From: a virus
IMG/VR virus record: IMGVR_UViG_3300019761_000095
Span: 1-22,900 of that record
Strand: one strand, 5' to 3'
DNA length: 22,900 nt
This document shows, in pieces, positions 1 to 21,578 of this stretch. Below the pieces are notes generated by a model that saw only the letters and a program-made list of their open reading frames with translations, did not search any database and had not been told where the DNA came from. Position 1 is the first letter of the stretch; every line of letters starts with the position of its first letter. Made by a program: the position numbers and the translations under genes.

Positions 1-1095
1 ACTACGTATCCTTTGATTGTAAGAGATAAAGAAAAGTTTGAGTCACATTGCTTTTTATATATCATTTTAGATGAAGCCCAAAAAATAAAAAATCCAAAAA
101 CAAAAATGACCCAAACAATAAAAGAGCTCAAAAGTGAACACAAACTAGCTTTGTCTGGAACTCCAATTGAAAATCATCTAGGGGAGCTTTGGAGTATTTT
201 TGACTTTTTAATGCCAAATTTTTTAGATACATTGAGTTTTTTTAAAAAGTATTATCAAAATCCAATTGAAAAAGAAAATGATATGGCTCGTCAAAAACTA
301 CTTAACGAAAGAGTAAAACCATTTATCATACGGCGTACAAAAGAGAAAGTAGCACATGAACTTCCAGCAAAATCTGAAATCATCAAATACACTCAGTTTG
401 AGTCCAAGCAGTCAAAACTCTATGAATCTATACGTGTAACTATGGAGAAAAAAGTACGAGAAGCTATTTCTGAAAAAGGGATAGGGTCTTCCCATATTAC
501 GATACTTGATGCACTTTTAAAATTACGACAAGTGTGTTGTGATCCTAGTTTAGTAAAAATTGATGAGGCTTTAAAAGTTCAGGAGTCAGCTAAACTAGAA
601 TTGTTTTTAGATTTAGTTGATGAACTTTTAAGTGAGGGTAGAAAGATACTTGTATTTTCACAGTTTACTTCTATGTTAAAAATAATAGAAGAAAAAATTT
701 TAGAAAAAGAGATATCGTATACTAAACTAACTGGCTCAACTGTAAATAGAGAACAAGCAATAGAGAAGTTTACAGATGGAAAAGCAGATATGTTTCTTAT
801 CTCACTCAAAGCTGGTGGAGTAGGGTTAAATCTCACACAAGCAGATACTGTTATACATTATGATCCATGGTGGAATCCAGCAGTAGAAAATCAAGCTACA
901 GATAGAGCATACAGAATAGGGCAAAAAAATGCAGTGTTTGTATATAAACTCATAGTAGAAAATAGTATCGAACAAAAGATACTAGAGTTACAAGAGAAGA
1001 AAAAAGTACTTCAAGACGGAATATTTGATGAAAATAAACAGCAAGAAGATACGAAATTTTCAGGAGAAGATTTATTGGAGTTGTTGAAGCAATAA
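1..1095 (+). CDS. SNF2-family DNA-dependent ATPase/helicase, C-terminal part (5' truncated by window)
   Basis: The reading frame is open to base 1, so the gene begins upstream; the TTG at 13 is only an internal codon (residues T-T-Y-P-L precede I-V-R-D). Motifs in order are: the DEAQ box (L-D-E-A-Q at 67-81), S-G-T-P-I-E-N (motif III), then the second RecA-like lobe with I-L-V-F-S-Q-F, L-T-G-S-T, L-K-A-G-G-V-G-L-N-L-T and the SNF2 signature D-R-A-Y-R-I-G-Q starting at 901. These motifs are diagnostic of the RapA/SNF2 group of ATP-driven double-strand DNA translocases, which remodel protein-DNA complexes. The lobe order and C-terminus look intact. It ends at TAA 1093-1095, and the hairpin at 1197-1227 could terminate it. 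The natural partner or substrate cannot be told from this fragment. Confidence 0.95.
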   Translation, partial: TTYPLIVRDKEKFESHCFLYIILDEAQKIKNPKTKMTQTIKELKSEHKLALSGTPIENHLGELWSIFDFLMPNFLDTLSFFKKYYQNPIEKENDMARQKLLNERVKPFIIRRTKEKVAHELPAKSEIIKYTQFESKQSKLYESIRVTMEKKVREAISEKGIGSSHITILDALLKLRQVCCDPSLVKIDEALKVQESAKLELFLDLVDELLSEGRKILVFSQFTSMLKIIEEKILEKEISYTKLTGSTVNREQAIEKFTDGKADMFLISLKAGGVGLNLTQADTVIHYDPWWNPAVENQATDRAYRIGQKNAVFVYKLIVENSIEQKILELQEKKKVLQDGIFDENKQQEDTKFSGEDLLELLKQ

Positions 1096-1106
1096 AACTT
1101 ATTTTA

Positions 1107-1135
1107 TTGACAAGAAAATTTTTATTTGTTATAAT
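1107..1135 (+). promoter_or_regulatory. Perfect-consensus sigma70 promoter
   Basis: TTGACA (1107-1112), exactly 17 bases, then TATAAT (1130-1135); predicted transcription start about 1142. Both hexamers match consensus completely, which is rare and implies strong transcription. No annotated-size gene follows on this strand for more than 1 kb. It must therefore serve the short RNA/mini-ORF locus at 1142-1381. Confidence 0.75.
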
Positions 1136-1141
1136 AATTAT

Positions 1142-1229
1142 GAAACACGAAAATCTCAATATTTAAGAATTAGTTACTCTTAGAGTATTGGAGTTTAAAA
1201 AGGTAAGGTTAATAGCCTTACCTTTTTTT
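1142..1229 (+). ncRNA. Candidate small RNA or structured leader of the mini-ORF
   Basis: The segment runs from the predicted start of the consensus promoter to the T-run of the first hairpin, giving about 88 nt. It has no credible ORF. It carries TATTGGAGTT (1186-1195), an exact complement of AACTCCAATA (1262-1271), which ends on the first base of the Shine-Dalgarno of the 20-aa ORF. It may be a stand-alone RNA ending at the hairpin, or the 5' part of a longer mRNA that reads through. Expression is inferred, not observed. Confidence 0.4.
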
Positions 1230-1312
1230 ATGATGGGTGGTATCTGAAAATGGGTAAAGGGAACTCCAATAAGGAGGTTTTCGTGTCGAGATTATTAATA
1301 ATCTTAATAGTG
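1195..1312 (-). ncRNA. Speculative antisense RNA over the mini-ORF start
   Basis: A perfect TATAAT lies on the minus strand at 1324-1319, inside the 20-aa ORF, with only a poor -35 match. A transcript from it would start near 1312, cover the start codon and Shine-Dalgarno, and run into the hairpin at 1227-1197. This geometry is like antitoxin RNAs that start inside a type I toxin ORF. The evidence is one hexamer in AT-rich DNA, so confidence is low. Confidence 0.2.
1197..1229 (+). terminator. 12-bp hairpin with T-run (possibly bidirectional)
   Basis: The arms AAAAAGGTAAGG (1197-1208) and CCTTACCTTTTT (1216-1227) are perfectly complementary around a 7-base loop, and the T-run extends to 1229. 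On the plus strand this is a textbook intrinsic terminator for the SNF2 gene and the RNA started at about 1142. On the minus strand the same stem ends in five T, so it could stop an antisense transcript too. Confidence 0.7.
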
Positions 1313-1345
1313 GTTGGTATTATACTTGTAGTACCACTTTTCTAA
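1283..1345 (+). CDS. 20-aa hydrophobic mini-protein, Ibs-like candidate type I toxin
   Basis: GTG at 1283 is preceded by a near-perfect Shine-Dalgarno AAGGAGG (1271-1277) at ideal spacing. The peptide starts M-S-R-L-L-I-I-L-I-V-V and ends V-V-P-L-F, so it has one charge (Arg3) and is otherwise a single membrane-spanning stretch. From memory, E. coli IbsC starts M-M-R-L-V-I-I-L-I-V; the charge position and hydrophobic pattern are strikingly similar. Ibs peptides are 18-19-aa inner-membrane toxins controlled by antisense Sib RNAs. Here the ORF has a structured leader, a consensus promoter upstream and a terminator nine bases after its stop. Translation is well supported by the ribosome site. 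The toxin role is inference; a leader peptide or a small membrane subunit are alternatives. Confidence 0.55.
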   Translation: MSRLLIILIVVGIILVVPLF

Positions 1346-1353
1346 AAAACTAC

Positions 1354-1381
1354 TGGGGAATTAACTACTCCCCATCTTTTT
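1354..1381 (+). terminator. Bidirectional terminator between mini-ORF and nuclease gene
   Basis: TGGGGA (1354-1359) pairs with TCCCCA (1369-1374) around a 9-base loop. It is followed by a T-rich tract on the plus strand (1375-1381), and by GTAGTTTTTT on the minus strand. It lies between the convergent mini-ORF and the minus-strand nuclease gene, so it can end both transcripts. Confidence 0.65.
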
Positions 1382-1433
1382 ACCTTCAAATTTAAATCCA
1401 GTTATTAATAAATTTAATTGCCAATACAATAGA

Positions 1434-2237
1434 TTATAAATCATAATCTTTTTTAAACTGCTCTTCTTTGAACTCTATAGTATCTTTTAGATTAAGTTTT
1501 ATCAAAAGATTTGGGTTTGTATTCATATCTTTTTTCTTGATGTAATACTGAGACTCTTTATTTGTCATACTTAAAAGATATTTTGTACCTATATTAAAGT
1601 TAGATACTCTTTCTCCTAAAGTTAATAAGTATCTATTGTTTGTTCTTTTTATTGTATAGTCATGAGTTATCTCATCTAACTCTTCTTGAAAATCTATTAA
1701 GTCTTTCCCTGGTATATGATCGTTTCCAGTTTTTTTTCTTCTAAATGTGATACTGATATCAAAATACTTTTCTATCTCAGCTAATGGTGCTAAAAGTGTA
1801 TCTTTAGCAGTTAAATTACAAAACTCTTTTGATGCTATGAGCCACTCTACATTTTTTTCACTATAAACTGCTTTTACCCATTTGTATAGTGTACTGTAAC
1901 TGATATCAGATACAGGAATAGTTGCTGAACTATTTCCTTGAAAGGCATCATAGTTTGTATTTAGATGTTTGATGATCTCTTGTGTATAGGTATTTGAACT
2001 ATTTTTACTCTTATCTGAGAATGTAAATTTATTCCCATCATTTAACAATATAATTTGTCCTGCTTGTGCAGGGCAAAATTTTGCTTCTATTGTTGTGATA
2101 ACTCTGTTTGTATCTCTTACTGTTATTTCTGAAGTTGTAGCGTCAAACCCACCTTCCATTGCACAGTGAATATCAAAATAATCACTTAAAAAATCTGTTG
2201 CTTGGTTTTGAAATACTTCCCACTTTTGTAATGCCAT
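1434..2237 (-). CDS. Putative PD-(D/E)XK-fold endonuclease (restriction-like)
   Basis: 267 aa, unrecognised by name. Residues 29-61 show a nuclease-like core: G-G-F-D-A (Asp32), a beta-rich spacer of 18 residues, then I-E-A-K-F (Glu51, Lys53) and a Gln pair (Q57/Q61) in C-P-A-Q-A-G-Q. This matches the D-x(n)-E-x-K pattern of the PD-(D/E)XK superfamily, which includes many type II restriction enzymes. The remaining 200 residues are charged and mixed alpha/beta, without signal peptide or membrane segment, so the product is cytoplasmic. AAAGG lies shortly upstream of ATG 2237, and a TATAAT sits at 2277-2272. No methyltransferase lies beside it, unusual for a restriction enzyme. A repair or defence nuclease that does not need one is an alternative. 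The fold call is moderately sure; the role is unknown. Confidence 0.6.
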   Translation of the reverse strand: MALQKWEVFQNQATDFLSDYFDIHCAMEGGFDATTSEITVRDTNRVITTIEAKFCPAQAGQIILLNDGNKFTFSDKSKNSSNTYTQEIIKHLNTNYDAFQGNSSATIPVSDISYSTLYKWVKAVYSEKNVEWLIASKEFCNLTAKDTLLAPLAEIEKYFDISITFRRKKTGNDHIPGKDLIDFQEELDEITHDYTIKRTNNRYLLTLGERVSNFNIGTKYLLSMTNKESQYYIKKKDMNTNPNLLIKLNLKDTIEFKEEQFKKDYDL

Positions 2238-2271
2238 ATTGTTGCCTTTGGTATAAATTATAATTTGGTGT

Positions 2272-2277
2272 ATTATA
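2272..2277 (-). promoter_or_regulatory. -10 hexamer for the nuclease gene
   Basis: A perfect TATAAT on the minus strand, 35 bases upstream of ATG 2237. No convincing -35 is present. It forms a divergent promoter region with the HAD gene promoter. Confidence 0.4.
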
Positions 2278-2316
2278 GCGAATAGATTACATATTATTCG
2301 TAGGTAGTCTAAAATA

Positions 2317-2325
2317 TGTTATACT
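2317..2325 (+). promoter_or_regulatory. Extended -10 promoter for the HAD phosphatase gene
   Basis: TG-T-TATACT at 2317-2325, 31 bases before ATG 2356. The -35 region is weak, as is usual for extended -10 promoters. Confidence 0.45.
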
Positions 2326-2355
2326 ATTGCTATAAATAAAAGGTTACAAAAGAAG

Positions 2356-2988
2356 ATGGATAAAAAATATATTTTATTTGACAACGATGGGGTATTGGTC
2401 GAAACAGAAATCTGGTACTATGAAGCCAGTAAAAGAGCGTTAAAAGAATTTTTTGATGTAGAGTTAGAGTTTGAAGAATATATGGATATTATGACAGCAG
2501 GAGAGGGAGTGTGGGTGGCTGCAAAAAATGCAAGTGATACAGAAAAAACTATAGCTCGAAATCAAAGAGATATGTATTATCAAGAGTATTTACGAACAGA
2601 AGATATAGCGATAGAAAATGTACACACAATTTTAAAAGAGTTACAAAAACAATATAAAATGGGTATAGTAACTACATCAAGACGAGTAGATTTTGAAATT
2701 ATCCATAAAAATAGTGGTATAACGGAATTTATGGAGTTTGTTTTATGTGTAGAGGATTATCCACGTTCTAAACCACATCCAGATCCTTATTTAAAAGGTT
2801 TAGAACTTTTTGGTGCTACAAAAGAGGAAACCATCATCATAGAAGACTCCCAACGTGGTCTTATCTCTGCAAATAGGGCAGGAATAGACTGTGTTATTGT
2901 TCATAATGAGTTTACTAAAACTCAAGATTTCTCAAAATCTTTATGTAAAATTGAAAACTTGACAGGGTTAATTAAAATATTAAATTAA
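2356..2988 (+). CDS. HAD-superfamily phosphatase (beta-phosphoglucomutase-like subgroup)
   Basis: 210 aa, the usual length of small HAD phosphatases. Motif I is F-D-N-D-G-V-L-V-E, with nucleophile Asp9 and acid/base Asp11. Motif II is the V-T-T-S stretch around residues 105-108. The motif III lysine is Lys139 in R-S-K-P-H-P-D-P. Motif IV is I-I-E-D-S (Glu163, Asp164), followed by G-L-I-S-A-N-R-A-G-I typical of the group. The helical cap is inserted between motifs I and II (about residues 16-88). The family hydrolyses or transfers phosphate on small cytoplasmic metabolites such as sugar phosphates; the substrate cannot be read from sequence. The ATG is preceded by AAGAAG. It is followed 57 bases later by a response regulator with its own extended -10, so the two are probably separate units. 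Confidence 0.9.
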   Translation: MDKKYILFDNDGVLVETEIWYYEASKRALKEFFDVELEFEEYMDIMTAGEGVWVAAKNASDTEKTIARNQRDMYYQEYLRTEDIAIENVHTILKELQKQYKMGIVTTSRRVDFEIIHKNSGITEFMEFVLCVEDYPRSKPHPDPYLKGLELFGATKEETIIIEDSQRGLISANRAGIDCVIVHNEFTKTQDFSKSLCKIENLTGLIKILN

Positions 2989-3013
2989 AATATATTTTTA
3001 CTAAATAAAAAAA

Positions 3014-3022
3014 TGTTATAAT
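3014..3022 (+). promoter_or_regulatory. Extended -10 promoter for the response regulator gene
   Basis: TG-T-TATAAT (3014-3022) lies 23 bases upstream of ATG 3046. It is a perfect extended -10 with a weak -35. The Shine-Dalgarno GTGAGG follows before the start. Confidence 0.55.
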
Positions 3023-3045
3023 ACGAAAAATATAAGTGAGGCTAA

Positions 3046-3720
3046 ATGAAAATATTATTATTAGAAAATGATCCAACACTACAAAATACAATAAAAGAAT
3101 ACTTAACAAATTTAGGACATCATTGTGTAACGTCTTTATATATTCAAGATGCTAAGCACTATTTAGTAGATACACTTTATGATTTACTTATATTAAATAT
3201 TGATGATAAAACCTTAGATGGATTAGAATTATATGCAGATTTAAAACGTACTAATTTTACAACACCAGTTATGTTTATAAGTAGTTTAGTTGATATAGAA
3301 ACAATATCAAAAGCATTTGATATGGGTGGTTCAGAATATATAAAAAAACCTTTTCATATAAAAGAATTAGGATACCGTTTACAAAAATTATCGTATGAAA
3401 TAGAAAATATACGAAGAGAGCATATTTTATTGAGTCCAAATTATAGCTATATACGAAAAGAGAACAAACTTTTATATAAAAATGTTGTGCAACCGCTTAC
3501 AAAAAAACAGTTTCATATTATAGAGTGTTTATGTAAAAATTTAGGAACGATAATAAATTTTGATCTATTTAGAGAATATGCTTGGGGATCAGATTTAGTG
3601 AGTGATGCAACTATTCGTACAGAATTAAGTCGTTTACGAAAAGTTTTAAAAGAAGATTTTATTCAAAATTATAAAGGGATAGGATATAAAGTAGATAGGT
3701 ATGTAAAAATACCTAAATAG
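3046..3720 (+). CDS. PhoB/OmpR-family response regulator with degenerate (Asn51) receiver
   Basis: 224 aa: receiver domain (about 1-118) and C-terminal winged helix (about 132-222, with T-I-R-T-E-L-S-R-L-R-K-V-L recognition helix and G-I-G-Y-K-V wing). In the receiver the switch residue is Ser79 and the conserved Lys101 (K-P-F) is kept. However, the phospho-acceptor site reads I-L-N-I-D-D, with Asn51 where the family has Asp, and the acidic pair reads Glu7-Asn8. The codon is AAT at 3196-3198, one base from GAT. Family knowledge says such receivers usually work without phosphorylation, like Helicobacter HP1043. The product would be a cytoplasmic DNA-binding regulator. A histidine kinase gene lies 360 bases downstream on the same strand but is separated by an opposite-strand gene, so pairing is uncertain. 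Target genes are unknown. Confidence 0.9.
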   Translation: MKILLLENDPTLQNTIKEYLTNLGHHCVTSLYIQDAKHYLVDTLYDLLILNIDDKTLDGLELYADLKRTNFTTPVMFISSLVDIETISKAFDMGGSEYIKKPFHIKELGYRLQKLSYEIENIRREHILLSPNYSYIRKENKLLYKNVVQPLTKKQFHIIECLCKNLGTIINFDLFREYAWGSDLVSDATIRTELSRLRKVLKEDFIQNYKGIGYKVDRYVKIPK

Positions 3721-3733
3721 AAGCGTATAAAAA

Positions 3734-3922
3734 CTAGTTTTCTAAAAAACTTATCTCATCTAAAATATTTTTTAAATCTTTCATACCTTCATCTAATTCA
3801 TGAATGATTTTCTGTTCAATCACATCCTGAGTCATCTTTTCATCTATTGTAATATTTAGTTGAAGTGCTTGTTCTTTTCTTATTTTTAATGCAATATTTT
3901 CATTTAATATTTTCTCAGACAA
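3734..3922 (-). CDS. Small acidic helical protein of unknown function
   Basis: 62 aa, starting at TTG 3922, chosen because AAGGAAAA lies just upstream and no ATG is available in the right place. The sequence is charged and predicted helical (E-K-I-L-N-E-N and later D-E-G-M-K-D-L-K-N-I-L-D-E-I), with no cysteines, signal peptide or membrane segment. It is convergent with the response regulator (13-base gap) and divergent from the histidine kinase. I do not recognise a family. The position between a regulator and a kinase hints at an accessory role, but this is only context. Confidence 0.5.
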   Translation of the reverse strand: MSEKILNENIALKIRKEQALQLNITIDEKMTQDVIEQKIIHELDEGMKDLKNILDEISFLEN

Positions 3923-4034
3923 AATTTTCCTTGTGTAAAATTTGGATTGAAATAATAGGGTAATAAACTTAAGTTAACTTTTCATCTGTGGTGAAAATAA
4001 ATATCCCTTAATTAAAGTAAAAAGAAGTATTATT

Positions 4035-4063
4035 TTGACATAATTAAATATATTAATTTAACT
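4035..4063 (+). promoter_or_regulatory. Possible promoter of the histidine kinase gene
   Basis: A perfect -35 TTGACA (4035-4040) is followed after 17 bases by only a weak -10 (TTAACT, 4058-4063). It is suggestive because of its position 17 bases before the start codon region, but unproven. Confidence 0.3.
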
Positions 4064-4079
4064 AACTGGATATACGTAT

Positions 4080-6017
4080 ATGGACAATATGAAAAAAGAA
4101 CAATCTATTTTAAACTTTATTAAATATGGACCAATTCTTTTTGTACTCACTTTATCATTTATAATTACAAAAATTACTTTAGAGGATAGAAAAAAAACTT
4201 TTGAAGCGGAAGTAAAACATATAGAAGAAGTATTTTGGTTAGATAATAAGCAAAGAATTAAAGAAGAAGTTGAAGAGGTATACCAGTATATTTTAGATGA
4301 AAAGAAAAATTCAGAAAGTTTTTTAAAAGAAGAGATAAAAAATAGAGTATATGAAGCACATCAAATTGCAACAAATATGTTTTCTAATGAAGTAAAATTA
4401 GAAAAAAATCATAATCATTCTCAAAAATATATTTTAGAGTCTATAAAAAACGCCTTGGGTGGAATAATCTACAATAAAGGTAGAGGGTATATTTTTATGG
4501 ATGATATTAATGGAATCAAAATTTTACAACCTTTAAATAAAGAACTAGAGGGAAAAGATCTTTCAAATTTTCAAGATGCAAAAGGGTATAAATTTGTCCA
4601 TAAAATTGTAGATACTATTAAAAATAAAACTGAAGCGTATGATACGTATTATTGGTATAAGTCTGGAAATAAAGAAAAATCATACAAAAAAATTAGTTTT
4701 TATAAATACTTTGAGCCCTTTAATGTTGCAATTGGGACAGGTGAGTATCTTAAGGACTTTGAAGAAGAATTAAAGGAAAAGGTACTTGAACGAATAAATA
4801 AAATGAGATATGGAGAAAAGGGTTATATATTTATATATGATTTAGATGGTACATGTTTATCACATTACAAACAAGAGCTTGTTGGAAAAAATAGGATAAA
4901 CTATCAAGATAATGAGGGAAGACTTCTTGTTCAGGAGATAATTGATCTTAGTGTAAAAAATAAAGAAGGATATTTAACATATAAATCTTCTGTTAGACCT
5001 TTTGATAATATTGAAAGTAATTTAAAAGTATCGTATATTAAATCATTTAAGGATTGGGGATGGGCTATAGGTACAGGCTTTTATACTGATGCGTTACAAA
5101 AAGAGATAGAAAAAAGAAAATTTAGCTTAGAAACAACAAATAAAGAATCATTAAAAAAGATAATATATGTCAGTCTTTTCATAACAATAGTTTTTATTTT
5201 AATCTCTTTTTATATCTCAAAAATAATAAAAAATAGATTTGAAGAGTATAGAACTAATTTAAACGATGAGATACGAAAAACAATAGAAAAGGATCATCAA
5301 CTTATACAGCAATCTAAAATGGCTATAATGGGTGAGATGATTGGTAATATTACACATCAATGGAAACAACCATTAAGTTTAATAAGTGTTTCAAATAGTC
5401 TAATTCAATTTAACCAAGGTAATGATAAGACAAATTCAAAAGAGAAGCTTAAAAAGTTTACAAGTAATATTGAAAATGCAGTAAATCATCTATCTACTAC
5501 TATCGATGATTTTAAAAATTTCTTCAGACCTGATAAAGAAAAAAAACTTTTTAAAATAGAAGATGTTTTTACTAAAACATTTAGCTTAATTAATTTTCAA
5601 TTTACGGATAATAATATTGAATTAATGAGAAATACGAGTGATATTATTGCTTATGGATATCAAAATGAACTTTTACAAGTTATGCTAAATATATTTTCAA
5701 ATTCAAAAGATGAACTTGTTAAATTAAAAAGTGGGAAAAGGCTTGTTTTTGTAGATGTTCAAAAAAATGAAAGTTACGTAACTATAAGTATAAAAGATAA
5801 TGCAGGGGGGATACCTGATGCTATTATTGACAAAGTATTTGATTCCTATTTTACAACAAAAAATGATAAAGAAGGAACAGGTATTGGCTTATATATGAGT
5901 AAACAAATTATTACTAATATGTCTGGTACTATCACTGTTCAAAATGTACAATATGAAATAGATAATATTCAGTATAAAGGTGCAGAGTTTATAATATCTT
6001 TACCTTTTGAAGAATAA
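4080..6017 (+). CDS. Membrane histidine kinase with double Cache sensor
   Basis: 645 aa. A short N-terminal tail leads to membrane segment 1 (about 14-34) and a large periplasmic region. That region carries two related Cache halves: G-R-G-Y-I-F-M-D-D near 135-142 and E-K-G-Y-I-F-I-Y-D near 246-254, each followed by I-G-T-G. Membrane segment 2 is at about 361-381. A linker and HisKA H-box follow, with phospho-acceptor His426 in I-T-H-Q-W-K-Q-P-L. The HATPase lobe shows an N-box around Asn537-Asn541, G1 box D-N-A-G-G-I-P at 573-579 and G2 box G-T-G-I-G-L at 599-604. All catalytic boxes are intact. The family senses small extracellular molecules (often organic or amino acids) and phosphorylates a response regulator. 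The nearest regulator, at 3046-3720, lacks its acceptor Asp, so the partner may be elsewhere. An alternative start at 4089 is possible. Confidence 0.93.
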   Translation: MDNMKKEQSILNFIKYGPILFVLTLSFIITKITLEDRKKTFEAEVKHIEEVFWLDNKQRIKEEVEEVYQYILDEKKNSESFLKEEIKNRVYEAHQIATNMFSNEVKLEKNHNHSQKYILESIKNALGGIIYNKGRGYIFMDDINGIKILQPLNKELEGKDLSNFQDAKGYKFVHKIVDTIKNKTEAYDTYYWYKSGNKEKSYKKISFYKYFEPFNVAIGTGEYLKDFEEELKEKVLERINKMRYGEKGYIFIYDLDGTCLSHYKQELVGKNRINYQDNEGRLLVQEIIDLSVKNKEGYLTYKSSVRPFDNIESNLKVSYIKSFKDWGWAIGTGFYTDALQKEIEKRKFSLETTNKESLKKIIYVSLFITIVFILISFYISKIIKNRFEEYRTNLNDEIRKTIEKDHQLIQQSKMAIMGEMIGNITHQWKQPLSLISVSNSLIQFNQGNDKTNSKEKLKKFTSNIENAVNHLSTTIDDFKNFFRPDKEKKLFKIEDVFTKTFSLINFQFTDNNIELMRNTSDIIAYGYQNELLQVMLNIFSNSKDELVKLKSGKRLVFVDVQKNESYVTISIKDNAGGIPDAIIDKVFDSYFTTKNDKEGTGIGLYMSKQIITNMSGTITVQNVQYEIDNIQYKGAEFIISLPFEE

Positions 6018-6105
6018 GGTAATTTTAAAATCTCTTTGTACCTTTGATATATTAACTTTTGATTAAAAGTTCCATTTAAGTAATAACATAATATTATACA
6101 AAAAA

Positions 6106-6130
6106 TAAATGAATGACCGTCATTCATTTA
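6106..6130 (+). promoter_or_regulatory. Perfect palindromic TetR-type operator
   Basis: The arms TAAATGAATGAC (6106-6117) and GTCATTCATTTA (6119-6130) are exact inverse complements around one C at 6118. Palindromes with a TGAATGAC core of this length just upstream of a tetR-type gene are typical autoregulatory operators. It overlaps the likely start of transcription and ends 15 bases before the regulator's ATG. Confidence 0.75.
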
Positions 6131-6145
6131 AAAGTTGGAGGTTTT

Positions 6146-6340
6146 ATGGCAATTATTGTTGATAAGGTACAAAAAAGAAGAGATATTGCACTTTCTTGCA
6201 ATGATTTATTACTTGAAAAAGGGATTAAAAAACTCACTATTGCAGAAGTAGCAAAAACAGCGGGTGTATCTAAGGGAAGTATTTATGATTATTTTGAAAA
6301 CAAAGAAGATATTTGTGGAACCGCTTTTAAAATGTTATAA
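6146..6340 (+). pseudogene. TetR-family regulator truncated after its HTH, probably by prophage insertion
   Basis: The start ATG 6146 is chosen over an upstream in-frame ATG at 6113 because TTGGAGG precedes it at good spacing and 6113 lies inside the operator palindrome. Residues 1-56 are a normal TetR N-terminus: D-I-A-L-S-C-N-D-L-L-L-E-K-G helix, then T-I-A-E-V-A-K-T-A-G-V-S-K-G-S-I-Y-D-Y-F, then E-N-K-E-D-I. After Ile at 6311-6313 the sequence turns into C-G-T-A-F-K-M-L and stops, giving 64 aa instead of about 190-200. The whole ligand-binding and dimerisation domain is missing. Without dimerisation it should not bind the palindrome well, so its own promoter and any efflux-type target would be derepressed. 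The missing 3' half may lie at the far side of the prophage. A naturally short HTH-only protein is a less likely alternative. Confidence 0.8.
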
Positions 6341-6516
6341 TTTTGCTTATGAAATGTTAATACACCTTAAAATATAGCTATTTTCACCCTTTTCACTCAC
6401 ATTTTAAAAGCAAATAGTTATATTAAAATAGCCTTAAAAAATAAACATTTCAAGTACTAACTAACCTTTTAAAAACAAAACTAAAACTTATTTAACACCC
6501 TTTTTTACTCTTTCTA
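6314..6516. repeat. Repeat-dense non-coding phage-end region
   Basis: No gene is visible between the tetR stop (6340) and 6517. The stretch holds a 13-bp perfect inverted repeat, GCTTTTAAAATGT (6323-6335) with ACATTTTAAAAGC (6399-6411). It also holds an 8-bp one, GAAATGTT (6351-6358) with AACATTTC (6444-6451), and a near-direct repeat CACCCTTTT-n-ACTC (6385-6398 and 6496-6510). Clusters of short repeats at an element end are typical recombinase binding sites. That role is an inference. Confidence 0.45.
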
Positions 6517-6747
6517 TTAATTTGAGAGTTGATTGTAAGTATTATCGCATGTAGTTATAATGTCATTTATAATTGCATCTAAACCATAAATACCTTCATT
6601 CTCTTTCCACATATGTTCTTCCATTAAAGATAATGATCTTTTTATAAAGATAAGTTTTGCACTTGTATCTGCCATTTCTCTGCAAATCTTTGAATATGTT
6701 TCTTCTGGTATTACATACCCACTTGCAACTTTTTGTACTTTTTCCAT
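6517..6747 (-). CDS. Small phage protein of unknown function
   Basis: 76 aa with an ATG overlapping the stop of the antirepressor-like gene (TAATG), so it is translationally coupled to it. The sequence is mostly helical and charged, with C-R-E-M-A-D-T-S-A-K in the first half and G-L-D-A-I-I-N-D-I-I-T-T-C-D in the second. There is no membrane segment. I do not recognise the family. As the distal gene of the two-gene minus-strand regulatory operon from the promoter at 7566-7594, a role alongside the regulator is plausible. It is the last gene before the proposed phage end. Confidence 0.6.
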   Translation of the reverse strand: MEKVQKVASGYVIPEETYSKICREMADTSAKLIFIKRSLSLMEEHMWKENEGIYGLDAIINDIITTCDNTYNQLSN

Positions 6748-7535
6748 TATATTATTTCCTTTCCTGATAATTGGGCTACTCTGTCAAGTAGTGCCATTGA
6801 TTCCATATCTAAGTATTGAGACTCCATATCTAGCTTTTTATCAAGCTCTCCACTTAACAGGTACTGTCCGAAGCTACCATCACGATTATGTAGACCTATC
6901 CAACCAGCACCGATTCGTGTCCACCATGTAACATGACCTATTTTTACAAAGTGTTTATTTTTTACTAGCTTATCTCCATGGTATTTTTTGAGTACTCTAA
7001 GTGTTGAACTTTTAACACCCATAAGCCTTGCTAACTCTGGAGTAGATACTATAAAACCATATTTACTATCTGCATACGCTAAAGCTTTAAATCCCATATG
7101 TTCTATATAAAATTCTGCATTTGGATTGAACACTCCATATTGAGAATAGAACTTCATCATATCTTCATCTATAGGTATCTCTTTTACTATCTTTGGTTCA
7201 TAAGTTTTATTGAGTTCAGCTATTATAAGATCCTCACACCAGTCTCTAAACTTTTTAGCTCTTTGGCTTTTGATGAAAAATCCTAATCTTACTAATCCTC
7301 TTTTTGTCCAAAGTGTTTGTCGTCTAGGAATCCCGCCGTCCATAATTTGGACGCTGGTAAAATGTTTGTTTTCAATAAACTCATCTTTATTATTATTCTT
7401 ATGACTTCTTACAGTACTTGAATTTACACCATAACCAAGTGCTACCTCTTTAGTTGGTAACAAAAACTGATGAGTTTCATCTACTATAAGATTTAACTCT
7501 ATATCATCTTCAAATTTCTTTACAATTGTTGTCAT
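6747..7535 (-). CDS. Antirepressor-like phage regulator with duplicated DNA-binding domain
   Basis: 262 aa, cytoplasmic. Two copies of one domain are visible. The first has G-V-N-S-S-T-V-R at 36-43, E-N-K-H-F at 55-59 and W-T-K-R-G-L-V-R-L-G-F-F at 76-87. The second has G-V-K-S-S-T-L-R at 173-180, K-N-K-H-F at 192-196 and W-T-R-I-G at 205-209. Between them R-A-K-K-F-R-D-W-C-E-D (92-102) is typical of phage antirepressor/ORF6N-like proteins. Such proteins relieve repression or bind DNA during the lytic switch. ATG 7535 is preceded by AAAGGAT. The gene is driven by a perfect-consensus promoter at 7594-7566 whose spacer carries an operator-like repeat, so repression by the divergent HTH regulator is likely. 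Family naming is moderately sure. Confidence 0.7.
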   Translation of the reverse strand: MTTIVKKFEDDIELNLIVDETHQFLLPTKEVALGYGVNSSTVRSHKNNNKDEFIENKHFTSVQIMDGGIPRRQTLWTKRGLVRLGFFIKSQRAKKFRDWCEDLIIAELNKTYEPKIVKEIPIDEDMMKFYSQYGVFNPNAEFYIEHMGFKALAYADSKYGFIVSTPELARLMGVKSSTLRVLKKYHGDKLVKNKHFVKIGHVTWWTRIGAGWIGLHNRDGSFGQYLLSGELDKKLDMESQYLDMESMALLDRVAQLSGKEII

Positions 7536-7651: not shown

Positions 7652-7873
7652 ATGGATAAAAAAGAATTTGATTCTATTTTAAAAGAAAATAGATTATCAA
7701 GAAAAGACTTTGCTAGTTTATCAGGTATTCAATATACGACTGTTGGAAAATGGAATGATACTGATAGACCGATACCTGCATGGGTAAGAAGTTGGCTAAA
7801 AAACTACATCAAAGCCAAAAGTTATGAAGATGTAAAAGATAAGGTTTTACAGATAGAGGGGATAGCTAAGTAG
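7652..7873 (+). CDS. Small HTH phage regulator (Cro/CI-type candidate)
   Basis: 73 aa. Residues 10-45 form a helix-turn-helix: S-R-K-D-F-A-S-L-S-G-I with Q-Y-T-T-V-G-K-W-N as recognition helix, as in short XRE-like regulators that are little more than the DNA-binding domain. The tail I-P-A-W-V-R-S-W-L-K-N-Y is common to this small family in phages. AAAGGAT lies just upstream of the ATG. It faces the antirepressor operon across a 116-base divergent region with two operator-like repeats, the classic layout of a lysis-lysogeny switch. It is probably the repressor or Cro equivalent. There is no larger CI-like gene with a cleavable domain in view. Confidence 0.75.
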   Translation: MDKKEFDSILKENRLSRKDFASLSGIQYTTVGKWNDTDRPIPAWVRSWLKNYIKAKSYEDVKDKVLQIEGIAK

Positions 7874-11414: not shown

Positions 11415-12361
11415 TTCGTTGGTACTCCTACTATTTTACATTGTGTTGGTATGCTTTGATTGTTGGCTTTCATTGAAAAGTTTTCTAAATACCCAATATC
11501 AATGTTTTCTGCAAAAACATCCTTTTTAGTAGGTATCCAAAGCATATACCTATCAAATATCTCATCTGCTCTCATTGCTGTAGAGTTGAAATTATTTGTA
11601 TCAACTATTAATTCAGCACTTAAAACTCTTACACTTCCTTTACGAAGTACAGTTCTAAATCCAGTAAATTGATTAACATCAAACTTACTCTGACTTTCCC
11701 AAGTTAAAAGATTTCCGATTATATTAAACCCAAGTTCTTCTTCTCGTCCAATACCTAAAGTTCCTATAGACATATCTCCAGTAAAAGTTAAAGTAACAGT
11801 ACTACTAGGAAGCCATTCCAAATCCAATATTACTTTTCTTTTTTGCTTTGTAGGCTTGAAACAATACTCAGCAAAATCATCAAAACTAATATCTTTTCCA
11901 CTTATTACAGATTTTGTTACCTCCTGTGTTGTATTACATTTTTGTGAGACTGTTAAAAGATGAAATTTACAATCAACAAAAGATAAGATATTACATTGGT
12001 TAAAGTCCATAGTCATTACTACATCAGTTCCAACTGTTTTTGCTCCTATATTTTCATCTAAAGCAAACATATTTGCACTATTTACATAACCAAACCAAAC
12101 CCATTTTTCACTATTTTCAAGACATGGAAAATTTCCTACATTTGGTTCTTCTATAGTTCCGATAGTGCTTCTATAAATACTTTTTAGCTCAGGTACTATT
12201 ACATTATCACCATGTAAATATTTCTGCGTTTCAGAATATTCTGGATATTGTTCATCTGTTACACCTGTAATTGTTGTTGCATTTTTATAGATAGTTTTTT
12301 GATAAGTGATTCCTTCATGCTCTACACTTAGAACTTCCTCTTTTAACTCTGCAAAATTCAT
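11411..12361 (-). CDS. Distal tail protein downstream of tape measure
   Basis: 316 aa. The start is V-S-V-E-H-E-G-I-T-Y-Q-K-T-I-Y, then I-Y-R-S-T-I-G-T-I-E and W-V-W-F-G-Y-V-N-S-A-N-M-F (about 87-99), and F-T-G-F-R-T-V-L near 250. I recall proteins of this build directly after tape measure genes in siphoviruses, including transposable ones, where they form part of the tail tip. The central segment may include a small carbohydrate-binding-like insertion (Y-P-E-Y-S-E-T-Q-K-Y-L-H-G-D-N). The ATG overlaps the tape measure stop (ATGA). No large hub or J-like protein follows, so this may carry more of the tip structure than usual. Confidence 0.6.
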   Translation of the reverse strand: MNFAELKEEVLSVEHEGITYQKTIYKNATTITGVTDEQYPEYSETQKYLHGDNVIVPELKSIYRSTIGTIEEPNVGNFPCLENSEKWVWFGYVNSANMFALDENIGAKTVGTDVVMTMDFNQCNILSFVDCKFHLLTVSQKCNTTQEVTKSVISGKDISFDDFAEYCFKPTKQKRKVILDLEWLPSSTVTLTFTGDMSIGTLGIGREEELGFNIIGNLLTWESQSKFDVNQFTGFRTVLRKGSVRVLSAELIVDTNNFNSTAMRADEIFDRYMLWIPTKKDVFAENIDIGYLENFSMKANNQSIPTQCKIVGVPTK

Positions 12362-15300
12362 TTATTGAACCTACCTGTTCTTGTATTTTCTGCTATATTT
12401 GATGAATGATGATTATTATCTTCTCTCATTTTTCTAACTTCATTCTTTAAAGATTGGATCTCTTGTAAAAGTTTTTTCATATGCAGTGGATCATTTTTAA
12501 GTGGTACGATAAGTTCATCATGACTTTCTTCACCAATATGACCAAAAACTCCACCTTGTCCACCTTTTATTAATCCACCTTCTGCAAATGCTGTATATTT
12601 TTTATTATTTAAATACTCATCAGAGTTTAAAAATCCGCTTGATATTTCAGCTCGTGTTAAATCACTACTTGTCCAATAGTCAACACCTGTTAACTCTCCT
12701 TCTCTTCCTAAAATATCTTGATATAAGCTTCTTACATATTGTTCTCTTTCAGATAACACAGGTTCGTTTGTAGGTATTCTTGTGTTAGAAGAAGTTGTTG
12801 AATTTGTAACTAGAGATTTTCCTATATCACTGAGTTGAGCTAGTAATGACTCATAAGTCATCCTTGTATTTTCTTCGATCTCTGCTAAATAATCTATTTG
12901 AGTTCTAGTATCTATTTCTAAATCTTCTAATTGATTAGCAGCTGATAACTGAGCATAAGTCATATCTGCAGTACTCGTAAATAGATCAGTATTATTAAAG
13001 ATATTTGAGCTTGATACCAAGTCTTTTATTACAGATGCATATCCATCCTCATCTGTTATATCAAAATCTTTAGCAGTATTTAAAGTAGTATAAAATTTAG
13101 CTAAAGACACATCTGCTGTTTGACTATATCCACGTAACTTATCTATTGTTGTTTCTAAAGATGTAAATACACCTTCAAGTGTAGAAATTGAATCTGCATA
13201 TTCATTTGTTTGTTCAATAATAGATTTATTAGCTGACAATAACTCAGCTTCTGCATCTGTTAAACCAACTGTATCAGAAGCTAACTTTTCAAATAGTGAA
13301 GATAATTCTTCTATATTTGTTGCAACATCTACACCCAAATTTGAAGCCATATCTCCTAATAACTCTTCATCGTTTTTAAAACTATCTACAAAAGAGTTTA
13401 TATTATTAACAGAAGTCTCCATCGCTTCTGCTACTAGTTCAAAGCTATCCATGCTATTGATAAGCTCCCTAAGTCCTTTATCGTTTGTTTCGTATGCTGT
13501 TCCAAGTTGTGTGTTTAGCTTATAAAGTGTATCTTGTTGTTTTAAGAAATCTTTAGGATTTGTAGAAAATAAACTTTCTAATTCTGCATTAGTAAAACTG
13601 TTTTCTAATTCTCTAATAAGAGAAATATTTTCTTCTATAAAAGACGAGAAGCTTTTATCCCCTATAAGAGAAGATACAGTTTCGTATGCTTTTTTAGTTT
13701 CTAGTTCTGCATATTTACTAGTATTTGTTATAGAGTCAAACATATCCTCTACATCTTCTTTATAGTCAACTAAACTTTCCAAAGAGCCGAAAGAACCTTT
13801 TGCAAAATCCGCCATTAGGTTCTGCATTTCAAAAATTCTCTCTACACCTAAAAGCTTATTTTCTTCGGCTGTATTATTTCCGCTACCCCAATTTACGAGA
13901 AATCCTGCATTGTTGTCGAAAAGTACACCGACATATCGCAAGAAGTCCTCATTACTTTGAATTAAATCTTTGTTTAATCTTGCGTCTTGTTCCCCTTTAA
14001 TACCATCTTCTCTTTCTGTAGAAGTCCATAAGTCTGCACCAAATTTACTATTTAGATTGTCGAAAAGTTTTAAATAATTTTCCCATTGTTCAGGTGTTTC
14101 ATATCTCGATACTAATCGACCTTGAAGCCCTTTTTCTTCTCTAAAATCTGAAGTCATTTCATTTATGTATGTAGCCATAGCATAGTCATATTCTACTTTT
14201 GTTTTTTCGATTGTCAGTTGTTCTGCACTACCATTTTTCTTAATCGCTTCCAACAGGTCTATTTGGATATCCGCTTTTTCTAACATAGGCTCAAAATGGT
14301 TATCTATTCCGACTTGATTTATTTCAGATTGTGGAACTTTAGGAGCAGAACCACCTCCACCACCACTAGCTCCAATTTGTCCTAGCAATCCACCAACAGC
14401 TGCCATAGTTAAAGGTACTGTTACAAGATTTAAAGGATAAGGATCACCCCATGCTCTAATAACAGCACGTACACCTTGTACTACTGCTAAACCTTGCTCG
14501 GCAGCAATTGCAACTTTAGCTGCTGTTGAACTTTGTTCCCCATAGCTTGAAACTGCAGCAGAAAGATTTGAAAATGCTCCGATATAACTATCCATTTCAC
14601 TTTCTCTTATTTTTGATTGTGTAGCATCAAATTCAGATGATGCTTTTTTTTCTTTATATACATCTCCATTTGCTTCAAGGTATGCTTTTGCATATTTCTT
14701 TTGTGCTTTTAAATCTGCACTTTCACGTTTCTTTTTGTCTTTATCTATATCAGAAAATGATTTTCCAGCTTGAAGTAATGCTCCACTTACTCCTTTGATG
14801 TTTGTAGCCCAGCGATCACTACTATCTGCTAAAGAGGATTGCAAGTCAAGTAAATCAGTCATAGAGTCCATACTATCAAGATTTGCTATTTCTAATTCTG
14901 CTTCTATTTTTATCTTTTTTGCACTTATAATACTTATTTCATTAATCAATGCATCATCTACTAGATCTAATTGCACTTGAGTATGTAATGGATTTAAAGC
15001 TACAGTATCTCTTAAATTTGCATACTTTAAAGATACTTCATAAAATGGATCATCTTCTATAGTTATATTTAATGATTGTTCTATAGTAGTTAATTTATCC
15101 TGCTGAGCGTAAAACTCTTTAGCTGCACTATCCATAGTTGTTTTTATGCTTAGTTTTACAGTTTTATCTGTATTTTTATTTGAAGATGAACCTACTAAAG
15201 AATCTTTGTTTTTTTCTGAGTCTTCTATTAATTCACTTCTTTTTTTAATAAGTTTAGTAAGCTCTTCATTTAATTCTTTAATATTCTTTTTATAATGAGT

Positions 15301-16290
15301 TTCGCCAAATATTCTACCATTCCCTAAATCTTCAAAAAAAGAACCTTTTATTTTGCTGTTATTTTCAGACAGAGCTCTTGTTACATCTGCAATTTTATTT
15401 TCTACATCATCAAGTGTTTTAAGATCTGCTGGTTCAGCAAACCAATATTTCAATAATTTTACATCTTTATTTAAATCATCTAAAAATCCAGATAATTCTT
15501 TTGCACCTTCTTTAACATCTTCAAATATATCTTCAGTCATAGTTCCAGCTAATTGATCCCAAGAATTTGTAAGATTTGATACAGCGACATTCATTGTATC
15601 TGCTGCTTTAAATTGACTTAGTCTATCTTCTAAAAGTTTTACTACATCATCAGATTCTTTTAAAGCTTGATTTGTAAGACCAAGTCCACTTAAAAATCTC
15701 CCTAAGTCGCTATTTGCTAGAACAGTTCCAGTTGCAAGTCCATCAACACCAGCAAGAAGTGAATTAAATTCTATTTCTGCACTACCTGCTGCTATTGACA
15801 TCTTTTTTGTGATATTTATCATCTCACTATTTGATGCACCTGCTTTTTTCATAGATACATACATAGCTTTATAAATTTGGTTTGTTTGATTTAAAGAATG
15901 TGGAGTATCTGCATTTATCTTTTGTAAATCTTTTACAGATTTTGTAGCTTCTATAGTTGCTAATGAGTATTTATCTGTTAAAGTTAAGTGTTTTCCAAGA
16001 GCTGAAATATTTGAGCTAGTAGCAACAGTAAGAGCTGTAAGCCCTTGAGTTGATTGTTCTAAAGAATTATTAAAAGAAAATCCACTTTTTATAGCAAATT
16101 CAAATGCTTCTTTGATTAGATATATAGAACCTACACCAGCAGCAATACCACCGAGACTTTTTGTAACATCTTTTATCCCTATAGATGCAGATTTGGTTTT
16201 AGTATTTAATGTATCAAATTCATCACCGACAACTTTTACAGCACCTGTATCTTTGTCAACTTTAATTTTGATTTTTAATTCTTTATTCAT
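12358..16290 (-). CDS. Tail tape measure protein
   Basis: 1310 aa, the longest gene, placed after the tail chaperones as in all long-tailed phages. It starts with a charged segment and G-G-I-A-A-G-V-G-S helix (about 48-56). Alternating coiled-coil helices follow, with a central hydrophobic stretch near 610-650 (L-V-T-V-P-L-T-M-A-A-V-G-G-L-L-G) and a glycine-rich linker. Near 1180-1227 is a DUF4214-like unit (Y-V-R-S-L-Y-Q-D-I-L-G-R-E). The C-terminus has F-A-E-G-G-L-I-K-G and G-H-I-G-E-E-S-H-D-E-L-I-V-P-L, standard for tape measures. At roughly 1.5 angstroms per residue the tail would be about 190-200 nm. AAAAGGTGATAG is the ribosome site. It sets tail length and is ejected into the cell envelope at infection. 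Confidence 0.92.
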   Translation of the reverse strand: MNKELKIKIKVDKDTGAVKVVGDEFDTLNTKTKSASIGIKDVTKSLGGIAAGVGSIYLIKEAFEFAIKSGFSFNNSLEQSTQGLTALTVATSSNISALGKHLTLTDKYSLATIEATKSVKDLQKINADTPHSLNQTNQIYKAMYVSMKKAGASNSEMINITKKMSIAAGSAEIEFNSLLAGVDGLATGTVLANSDLGRFLSGLGLTNQALKESDDVVKLLEDRLSQFKAADTMNVAVSNLTNSWDQLAGTMTEDIFEDVKEGAKELSGFLDDLNKDVKLLKYWFAEPADLKTLDDVENKIADVTRALSENNSKIKGSFFEDLGNGRIFGETHYKKNIKELNEELTKLIKKRSELIEDSEKNKDSLVGSSSNKNTDKTVKLSIKTTMDSAAKEFYAQQDKLTTIEQSLNITIEDDPFYEVSLKYANLRDTVALNPLHTQVQLDLVDDALINEISIISAKKIKIEAELEIANLDSMDSMTDLLDLQSSLADSSDRWATNIKGVSGALLQAGKSFSDIDKDKKKRESADLKAQKKYAKAYLEANGDVYKEKKASSEFDATQSKIRESEMDSYIGAFSNLSAAVSSYGEQSSTAAKVAIAAEQGLAVVQGVRAVIRAWGDPYPLNLVTVPLTMAAVGGLLGQIGASGGGGGSAPKVPQSEINQVGIDNHFEPMLEKADIQIDLLEAIKKNGSAEQLTIEKTKVEYDYAMATYINEMTSDFREEKGLQGRLVSRYETPEQWENYLKLFDNLNSKFGADLWTSTEREDGIKGEQDARLNKDLIQSNEDFLRYVGVLFDNNAGFLVNWGSGNNTAEENKLLGVERIFEMQNLMADFAKGSFGSLESLVDYKEDVEDMFDSITNTSKYAELETKKAYETVSSLIGDKSFSSFIEENISLIRELENSFTNAELESLFSTNPKDFLKQQDTLYKLNTQLGTAYETNDKGLRELINSMDSFELVAEAMETSVNNINSFVDSFKNDEELLGDMASNLGVDVATNIEELSSLFEKLASDTVGLTDAEAELLSANKSIIEQTNEYADSISTLEGVFTSLETTIDKLRGYSQTADVSLAKFYTTLNTAKDFDITDEDGYASVIKDLVSSSNIFNNTDLFTSTADMTYAQLSAANQLEDLEIDTRTQIDYLAEIEENTRMTYESLLAQLSDIGKSLVTNSTTSSNTRIPTNEPVLSEREQYVRSLYQDILGREGELTGVDYWTSSDLTRAEISSGFLNSDEYLNNKKYTAFAEGGLIKGGQGGVFGHIGEESHDELIVPLKNDPLHMKKLLQEIQSLKNEVRKMREDNNHHSSNIAENTRTGRFNK

Positions 16291-16322
16291 CTACTATCAC
16301 CTTTTCTACCACTATATGGCGA

Positions 16323-16354
16323 TACTACTAAATCTTAAAAAGATTTATGTAGTA
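16323..16354 (-). other. Hairpin containing the GT stop codon
   Basis: On the minus strand TACTAC (16354-16349), a bulged A, and TAAATCTT (16347-16340) pair with AAGATTTA and GTAGTA (to 16323) around a TTT loop. The GT stop codon TAA (16347-16345) opens the upper stem. No T-run follows, so it is not an ordinary terminator. It could adjust translation or mRNA level between the chaperone and the tape measure. Confidence 0.45.
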
Positions 16355-16898
16355 CTATTAACTTTACTTAGTATTCTTTTCATGATTTTATATATATCTA
16401 TAGAATCAAACTTATATTTTTTACAATAATCTTTAACTATCTCATAGCTTATCTCTACCCCAAATCCATTGTTTTTTAGAGATGTTTGATATATATCAAA
16501 CAAAATATATTCATAATTAGTTTCTAACTCATACGAAAATATTCCGTTATCTTTTCCAAGTGTTTTTATGTAAGCTATGACACTCTTTATGCTTTCTTCT
16601 TGAGCTTTCCCATCTCTTCATCACAAAGATTTATGAAGTCATAAAAATTTCCATTTTCTTCATAAAATTCTTTTACTGCTTCAATCTCTTCTTTTTCACC
16701 TTTGAAATTATCAAAAAATTGTTTAAATGATAATTCATCAATTTCATACATCTTTGTACCTGGTGCTTTTGACAATTTTTTCATCTCTTTAATTTGTTTT
16801 GTAACTTTTTCAAAGTATGTGAATTTTAATTTTTTACTATCTAATTCGATCTCTACATCTATAAATTTTCTTGTGTTTTTATCTAATTTTAAGTTCAT
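16345..16898 (-). CDS. Tail assembly chaperone GT, made by -1 frameshift
   Basis: Reading starts as protein G, slips back one base at G GGA AAG (16611-16605) after Lys98, and continues in a frame without its own start codon: A-Q-E-E-S-I-K-S-V-I-A-Y-I-K, and on to the TAA at 16347-16345. This adds 86 residues and gives about 184 aa. The extension is open, helical and charged (I-S-Y-E-I-V-K-D-Y-C-K-K-Y). The slippery heptamer is the one used by lambda for gpGT, and position and direction match: after the tail tube, before the tape measure. GT would bind the tape measure and recruit tube protein during assembly. The frameshift itself is predicted, not measured. Confidence 0.8.
16587..16898 (-). 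CDS. Tail assembly chaperone G
   Basis: 103 aa, cytoplasmic assembly factor not expected in the virion. The N-terminus is beta-rich (M-N-L-K-L-D-K-N and I-D-V-E-I-E-L-D), the rest helical and acidic (K-G-E-K-E-E-I-E-A-V-K-E-F-Y). It ends C-D-E-E-M-G-K-L-K-K-K-A. The gene sits between tail tube and tape measure, the fixed place of G-type chaperones. AAAGGA precedes the ATG. A canonical slippery sequence near the 3' end diverts part of the ribosomes to make GT, while most should stop at 16589-16587. Confidence 0.8.
   Translation of the reverse strand: MNLKLDKNTRKFIDVEIELDSKKLKFTYFEKVTKQIKEMKKLSKAPGTKMYEIDELSFKQFFDNFKGEKEEIEAVKEFYEENGNFYDFINLCDEEMGKLKKKA
16605..16611 (-). promoter_or_regulatory. 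Programmed -1 ribosomal frameshift site
   Basis: On the minus strand the codons read ATG-GGA-AAG-CTC, giving G-GGA-AAG in the exact X-XXY-YYZ phase. After slippage both tRNAs re-pair on GGG and AAA. Six codons later the zero frame stops, while the -1 frame stays open for 86 codons. Confidence 0.8.
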
Positions 16899-18529: not shown

Positions 18530-19441
18530 TTACGCTGCTACAAATGTCACTAAAGTTACATATTTATGAATATCAAATTCATAATCACAGTACACAACAA
18601 ATTTATATCTTAAACAAGAAAGTTCATTGTCATACCATCTCGTTCTCTCAATTTGATTTGAGATTCCAAAGACCATATTTTTAGGAACTGTGGCTAGAAA
18701 TTCGCCAGTTTTCATATTTTCATTTGGTTTGAGTTTGTACCCCATAAATGAGTTAATTCCACCATTTATTAAAGCTCCACTATTTGGATAAGCTTCAGAT
18801 ACTTCTAATTGATAAGCATCATAATCAACTGCACTTAGATAAATAACAGCTTTTCCACCTTTACAATCTTCATGAATATTTTCAACTACTTTTTGAAGTT
18901 GTGCAGCCACCTCTGTTTCAGATGTAGTTACTTTTTTAGAATCAGAGCTATCTTTTGCAATTTGCACCCAACCTTTGGCTAATTCTTCAAATTCTGCTGT
19001 AGATGCTGCATTATCATCTGTACCAACAATTCCTAAATAATCTAAATCATTCATAAATGCAACAGCAAAACTTGCAAACTGCTCTGTATCAAAGTTTGGA
19101 TTATCTTTGTTATCATTTAAAGTATCTTGTAAAATTCTTGCATTTAAAGATACACCTTTACTCATATCAAGATTACACCCAATTTTTCCAAGTTTTTTCA
19201 TAGCAGCTGTAGATGGAGCAGTTCCACTTATATGTCTACTTAATACACCTTTTGCAATATCATAAGTGCTTCTTTCTTTTGTAAGTTTAGAAGAGATATC
19301 TACTGTTACATCTTTTAGGATAGATTGTCTATCTACAATAGCTTTAATAAATGTTCTTGCTTGTTGTGGTGTAAGATTTCCACTGAGTGTTACATCTTGT
19401 GGTGTTGTGTTTGCTTTTAAAATATCTGTTAAATTTTGCAT
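18530..19441 (-). CDS. Major capsid protein, P2 gpN-like (HK97 fold)
   Basis: 303 aa. The first 20 residues resemble a processed N-terminal tail. The body has L-D-Y-L-G-I-V-G-T (about 133-141), A-K-G-W-V-Q-I-A-K (compare V-G-W-L-Q in P2 gpN as I recall it), and a C-terminal block W-Y-D-N-E-L-S-C-L-R-Y-K-F-V-V-Y-C-D-Y-E, parallel to the gpN end. The start overlaps the stop of the protease/scaffold gene (TAATG), as expected for coupled head assembly. It forms the icosahedral shell after scaffold removal. Confidence 0.8.
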   Translation of the reverse strand: MQNLTDILKANTTPQDVTLSGNLTPQQARTFIKAIVDRQSILKDVTVDISSKLTKERSTYDIAKGVLSRHISGTAPSTAAMKKLGKIGCNLDMSKGVSLNARILQDTLNDNKDNPNFDTEQFASFAVAFMNDLDYLGIVGTDDNAASTAEFEELAKGWVQIAKDSSDSKKVTTSETEVAAQLQKVVENIHEDCKGGKAVIYLSAVDYDAYQLEVSEAYPNSGALINGGINSFMGYKLKPNENMKTGEFLATVPKNMVFGISNQIERTRWYDNELSCLRYKFVVYCDYEFDIHKYVTLVTFVAA

Positions 19442-20306: not shown

Positions 20307-20426
20307 ATTTCAAAACTTTAAAACACTCCATATATGAGTATTTAGAGTGATTAAAAAAATCTTTTATATTAGTATTGGGTATCTGAACCTTAAAAGGTTT
20401 ATGTGGTATGAAATGAAGGGAATTTG

Positions 20427-21485: not shown

Positions 21486-21500
21486 AATATGTTTTCTATG

Positions 21501-21521
21501 CCGTTTAAAACCCGTTTAAAA
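21501..21521 (+). repeat. Tandem 10-bp direct repeat upstream of terminase
   Basis: CCGTTTAAAA occurs at 21501-21510 and again at 21512-21521, spaced 11 bases (one helical turn), in the 93-base gap between portal and terminase. It is a possible regulator or terminase recognition site. A chance repeat in AT-rich DNA is not excluded. Confidence 0.35.
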
Positions 21522-21578
21522 ACTCAAAACTATTTTTATTCGATTAATGTATCGTCTAAACAAATAAAAGGCTAAATA

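Follow-up and report, generated by a model that had tools for sequence, protein, structure and literature searches.

How did a bacterial repressor gene of the TetR type come to end, after 56 codons, in the sequence of a bacteriophage, and what would this mean for the genes under its control? The question is raised by a virus record of 22,900 bases (the whole stretch of DNA that was analyzed, called the window here), in which bases 1-6313 are bacterial and everything from base 6314 onward is phage, the record ending inside the phage. The host genes match Arcobacteraceae, and the host is treated here as an Arcobacter-like bacterium. The answer developed below, to which a probability of roughly nine in ten is given, is that a Mu-like phage transposed into codon 56/57 of a tetR gene that in relatives heads a tetR-MFP-RND-TolC operon, thereby breaking the repressor and probably cutting the pump genes off from their promoter.

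The break itself is made up of the following parts.

6146-6313, plus strand: 5' part of tetR, 56 codons with the DNA-binding domain (Pfam TetR_N; 100% amino acid identity to residues 1-56 of the protein in relative G082)
6314-6340, plus strand: phage-encoded end of the truncated frame, CGTAFKML-stop, by direct translation, with TAA at 6338-6340
6314-6418, no strand: right end of the Mu-like prophage, which starts with TGTGGAACC at base 6314 (alignment with 15 further right ends)

The tetR frame starts at ATG 6146, TetR_N covers its residues 21-56 (E 5e-13), and its last host codon is ATT at 6311-6313. The nearest intact tetR that was found, in G082 (L152:5136-5732), encodes 198 amino acids; its first 56 residues are shared with the window, and it then continues as VFEIIRSH.... 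The sequence GAAGATATT is the host sequence that in an empty site would run straight into tetR codon 57. In the intact protein, TetR_N extends to residue 60. The window copy thus keeps the helix-turn-helix whole, but has lost the end of that domain and, after residue 56, the whole C-terminal domain for dimerisation and ligand binding, which is present in G082. Between the stub and the G082 gene there are 0 amino acid differences and 19 silent codon differences, and the stub retains its start and operator, for which reasons the break looks recent.

The position of the junction was established by comparison. With window bases 6040-6520 as the query against 104 Arcobacteraceae genomes, long tetR matches stop at 6310-6313 (two at 6294-6295), and matches to the phage end, which come from other places, begin near 6314 (6306-6319, one earlier). 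The switch from tetR to phage falls at 6313/6314 across all comparisons. The phage terminus is base 6314, fixed to one base, because 16 related right ends, aligned over about 105 bp, all start there with TGT (T1, G2 and T3 are invariant), while the flanks outside them are unrelated. An earlier note on this DNA, made from the sequence alone, had proposed that a prophage truncates tetR, that the TetR pattern holds up to the codon ending at 6313, that the junction lies within one or a few bases, and that phage genes begin about 200 bases later. All of this stands, the first phage-side open reading frame (6517-6747, minus strand) being 203 bp inside the terminus. Its statement that the gene is cut exactly after the helix-turn-helix is correct for the motif, but not for the domain, the end of which is lost. 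The comparison with an intact gene that it had suggested is provided by G082, and a native short tetR, sought as the opposing case, was ruled out: the 10 relatives inspected all have full-length open frames of about 195-213 codons. A search for the 3' part of tetR in viral contigs gave no match, and a simple scan found no intrinsic terminator near the junction.

The right end carries an ordered set of repeats.

6323-6359, plus strand: two direct 15-bp repeats, 22 bp apart, GCTTTTAAAATGTTA at 6323-6337 and GCTTATGAAATGTTA at 6345-6359, common to all aligned ends
6395-6414, minus strand: third, inverted repeat copy, ACTCACATTTTAAAAGCAAA (right-end alignment)

The direct repeats are likely transposase-binding sites. 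Further copies of the exact window right end were sought in viral contigs, and none was found; a sequence model, R1, built from the right end does find further copies, and is used below to map related phages.

The phage side of the window encodes the following.

6517-7535, minus strand: first phage genes, for a 76-aa unknown protein and a 262-aa antirepressor-like protein (100% identical in G001)
7652-7873, plus strand: small phage regulator with a Cro/C1-type helix-turn-helix (phrog_8898, E 8e-21; weak Pfam HTH_26)
12358-16290, minus strand: probable tail tape measure protein (weak TMP_3 match, with size and position)
18530-20268, minus strand: capsid-type structural protein and S78-type head protease (phrog_1623, phrog_3017; Peptidase_S78_2)
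20424-22900, plus strand: portal protein and terminase large subunit (Phage_portal; Terminase_6N/6C on the identical G001 gene)

The terminase frame opens at 21579 and runs off the record. The missing left part of the phage is supplied by G001 (IMG/VR record 3300019755_000131), which matches the window phage base for base over the whole 16.4 kb that they share, in pieces of 11,019 and 5,437 bp that meet. In its left part G001 encodes an S24-type repressor, a small regulator, a transposase, a TniB-like AAA ATPase, DUF3164, GemA, a weak Mu F-like protein and terminase. The transposase (L087:3212-5305, outside the window record) matches Mu-transpos_C (PF09299, E 1.5e-11) and rve (PF00665, E 3e-9), and is adjoined by a MuB-like AAA ATPase (L087:5316-6020; AAA_22 and TniB). 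The G001 record starts and ends exactly at gene stop codons, with about 0.2 kb of the right end and a left stretch trimmed; it therefore shows neither terminus and carries no information on the host site of G001. A candidate left end at L087:1066 (TGTATC...) was rejected, as it lacks the left-end consensus of relatives, the record begins exactly at a gene's stop codon, and the leftmost genes of relatives point outward as well. A hairpin-containing element of about 50 bp occurs in the window phage and in the related phage G002 (window 16303-16356, L087 8394-8447, L088 353-398; 83-85% identical); it has no Rfam match, and the search for structured RNAs gave none.

Transposases 56-67% identical to this one, in full-length frames, are found in 8 Arcobacteraceae genomes. 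The left ends of the phage family, seen only in relatives, read TGT[GA]AGG-like. Exact 5-bp target duplications flank the ends in four relatives: CCTTA (G044), AAAAT (G023), AAAAC (G069) and ATTAA (G087). In G023, removal of the prophage and one duplication leaves a continuous gspE-type gene. Because of these four cases, a duplication is also predicted in the window.

6309-6313, no strand: predicted 5-bp target duplication ATATT (on the model of the relatives' 5-bp duplications; second copy outside the record)

Three other relatives (G017, G018, G076) have no clean target duplication, which may reflect adjacent deletions or rearrangement. In G018 (L137/L136), the flanks connect an upstream gene with an internal part of gspE, which looks as though the beginning of that gene was deleted beside the insertion.

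Phages of this type are known in the Campylobacterota. AMLP1 is the Mu-like prophage of Arcobacter butzleri RM4018 (PMC2147049), and the G018 prophage, at 1,653,666-1,690,560, matches its approximate size and position. AMLP1 and CMLP1/CJIE1 of Campylobacter jejuni share with the window phage Mu-type A and B transposition proteins and a prophage of 30-40 kb. The AMLP1 paper (PMC2147049) gives neither termini nor a target site, and the window phage is a different virus, the closest transposase being 67% identical. More broadly, coliphage Mu and the D3112/Ab30 group of P. aeruginosa have in common with it TG...CA ends, repeated transposase sites, a 5-bp duplication (observed in relatives of the window phage and predicted for the window copy), a transposase with rve and Mu-transpos_C domains, an AAA ATPase partner and GemA. 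The relationship is distant, however, since the best transposase match in the phage collection is 28.5% identical over most of the protein, or 34.6% over half. Unlike those phages, the window phage has portal-like and S78-protease genes in its head region, and the sites of its family cluster at the S10 leader.

The function of the interrupted gene can be approached through its relatives. In G082, three genes come directly after tetR, for a membrane fusion protein (MFP), an RND permease and a TolC-type channel; in each case the distance to the preceding gene is 0-20 bp, or the two overlap. MFP and RND genes lie directly downstream of tetR in G082, G080, G071, G097, G087 and G068. A palindrome precedes the window gene.

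6106-6130, no strand: palindrome TAAATGAATGACCGTCATTCATTTA, likely TetR autoregulatory operator (perfect 12-bp arms; near copy before tetR in G082)

Self-regulated efflux operons are usually laid out in this way, with a palindrome before tetR and the order tetR-MFP-RND-TolC. AcrR, MtrR and the Campylobacter regulator CmeR share this plan, each TetR gene heading an MFP-RND-outer membrane operon with a palindromic operator. The window TetR, however, scores far under the curated AcrR and MtrR cut-offs and is not their orthologue; the comparison with CmeR covers the operon plan. By synteny with relatives, the target of the repressor would be its own operon, and the insertion would also be polar on the efflux genes, because tetR is the first gene of that operon in relatives.

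The proposed course of events is as follows; its account of the left junction, of the operon in this host and of expression is inferred. A transposable phage of the Mu-like kind, with relatives among the AMLP1-type Arcobacter prophages, inserted by transposition at tetR codon 56/57, with the right end of the prophage facing the start of tetR. The transposase would join the TG...CA ends to a staggered cut and duplicate 5 bp, predicted to be ATATT. The product left would be a 64-aa stub, consisting of the helix-turn-helix and eight phage-encoded residues, which should not repress because its C-terminal dimerisation and ligand domain is absent. A prophage of roughly 31 kb would now stand between the promoter/operator and the pump genes. 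Most likely, the operator-promoter would be free but transcribing only the stub, with the pump genes silent or expressed only by read-through, when outward transcription of phage genes passes the left end. The earlier note had predicted loss of repression of a host target. The repressor is indeed broken, but its target would be its own operon, and the pump genes would be separated from their promoter at the same time; silencing of the pump, or its takeover by outward phage transcription, is thus likelier than plain derepression.

Two other outcomes of the same insertion have to be weighed. The prophage could switch the efflux genes on: its leftmost genes, for the S24-type repressor and the M78 peptidase, are read outward, the direction in which the rest of tetR and the pump genes also run, so that a lysogenic promoter could drive the pump. 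In G001, these two genes do occupy the minus strand at the left end, and the leftmost genes point outward in most of the 8 relatives checked, but the left 0.3-0.7 kb of the phage is trimmed from all records, and such activation is rated as possible though doubtful. Alternatively, the main effect could lie elsewhere, the lost TetR having controlled other promoters in trans that would now be constitutively on. Local TetR repressors sometimes have further targets, and a stub deprived of its C-terminal domain should have lost trans repression too. Nevertheless, the anatomy points to a single target, the palindrome before tetR itself, with the pump genes of relatives downstream in the same operon, which makes a principal effect in trans unlikely.

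The host flank bears on whether the junction is chromosomal.

1-6313, no strand: host chromosome flank on the right side of the phage (SNF2 helicase fragment, HAD hydrolase, response regulator, histidine kinase, truncated tetR)

The window is collinear with G082 in blocks: 1-1089 (85% DNA identity), 2350-3972 (77%) and 6102-6312 (87%). The dCache histidine kinase at 4080-6017, which separates the response regulator from tetR, is missing from G082, where homology covers 2350-3972 and picks up again at 6102. The kinase found in G012 and G080 precedes the response regulator instead. A search of the window for a tRNA that might serve as a target found none. Since the record comes from a metagenomic virus collection and Mu-like phages package host DNA beyond their right end, the junction might be thought an artefact of assembly or packaging, in which random host DNA from virions was joined by the assembler. 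This is very improbable: a chromosomal prophage is favoured because the host DNA beyond the right end runs to over 6.3 kb and matches G082 in collinear blocks, exceeding the packaged tail expected of a Mu-type phage. Site-specific integration by an integrase at a short shared core, the route set against transposition in the earlier note, carries next to no weight and was rejected, given the Mu-type transposase and TniB-like ATPase of the identical phage G001, and the many unrelated target sequences, with duplications of 5 bp, that relatives occupy. For a transposable phage, an insertion of this kind is nothing unusual.

The distribution of related phages was examined by running the right-end model over 104 Arcobacteraceae and 399 Campylobacterales genomes. 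Counting Arcobacteraceae matches with E <= 1e-5, and leaving out internal, nested and partial duplicates, gave 25 sites, 24 of which were inspected; right ends outside the family looked scattered. Insertions occur at many different flanks across genomes, though they are clustered. Eleven of the 25 right ends lie 206-303 bp upstream of rpsJ in the S10 operon, all facing rpsJ (G044, G069, G036, G046, G045, G039, G004, G098, G091, G074 and G048; loci L144, L138, L151, L148, L147, L142, L163 and L169-L172). A weaker match in G019 has a similar place upstream of rpsJ. Comparison with intact S10 leaders places these insertions in the spacer that separates the conserved leader from the gene upstream of it. 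Three of the 25 (L158 in G070, L164 in G087, L173 in G068) lie 161-187 bp upstream of a tetR heading an MFP-RND operon orthologous to that of G082 (TetR 48-50%, MFP 47-49%, RND 70-85% identical where visible). Four more are in probable DNA-uptake genes (L134, L136, L140, L132): three interrupt a T2SSE gene of the gspE type, with a gspF-like gene after it, and the fourth a gene of the ComEC type. Their probable role in competence is taken from what is known in Campylobacter.

If insertion were uniform, the chance of three such tetR fronts among 25 sites would be about 2e-7, and that of two independent intact S10-leader insertions among eight full phages about 3e-7, with target sizes estimated and with common ancestry lowering the effective numbers, as G045 and G046 have shared flanks. 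G044 and G069 differ in transposase group and in duplication, and G087 has its own duplication. It is judged somewhat probable that this phage family inserts non-randomly, at the S10 leader, the tetR-RND front (the type of operon hit in the window) and gspE/comEC-type genes, through biased target choice or through selection that keeps insertions. For instance, loss of DNA uptake would protect a prophage from removal by transformation.

Some sites have been used more than once. In G045, G039 and G070 (L147, L142, L158), the right terminus is repeated over 11-21 bp immediately outside the right end now present, and in G039 (with L165) an older right end has most of its remainder beyond the new left end; later phages thus inserted into the end of an earlier one. 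Insertion hotspots are known for Ab30, a transposable phage of P. aeruginosa (PMC5977238), and insertion upstream of promoters is known for TnGBS-type transposases (PMC3942029). A promoter-adjacent rule of the latter kind is not supported for the S10 sites, whose ends stand clear of the TTGACA/TATAAT promoter, well over 100 bp upstream of it. The literature searched contained no account of Mu-like phages clustering at the S10 leader or at tetR-RND operons.

The locus is a clear-cut and recent example of how a transposable prophage can rewire a regulator of its host, and it yields a precise prediction at the unseen phage end. The comparison also provides base-exact ends for the Mu-like phage family of Arcobacteraceae and a map of its sites. 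The clustering of insertion sites is the part that a specialist would follow, as it bears on the conflict between prophages and natural transformation; that prophages disable transformation is an established idea (PMC4774983). If the clustering holds, the family would offer a tractable system in which Mu-type target choice, at the S10 leader and the fronts of efflux operons, could be set against selection in DNA-uptake genes.
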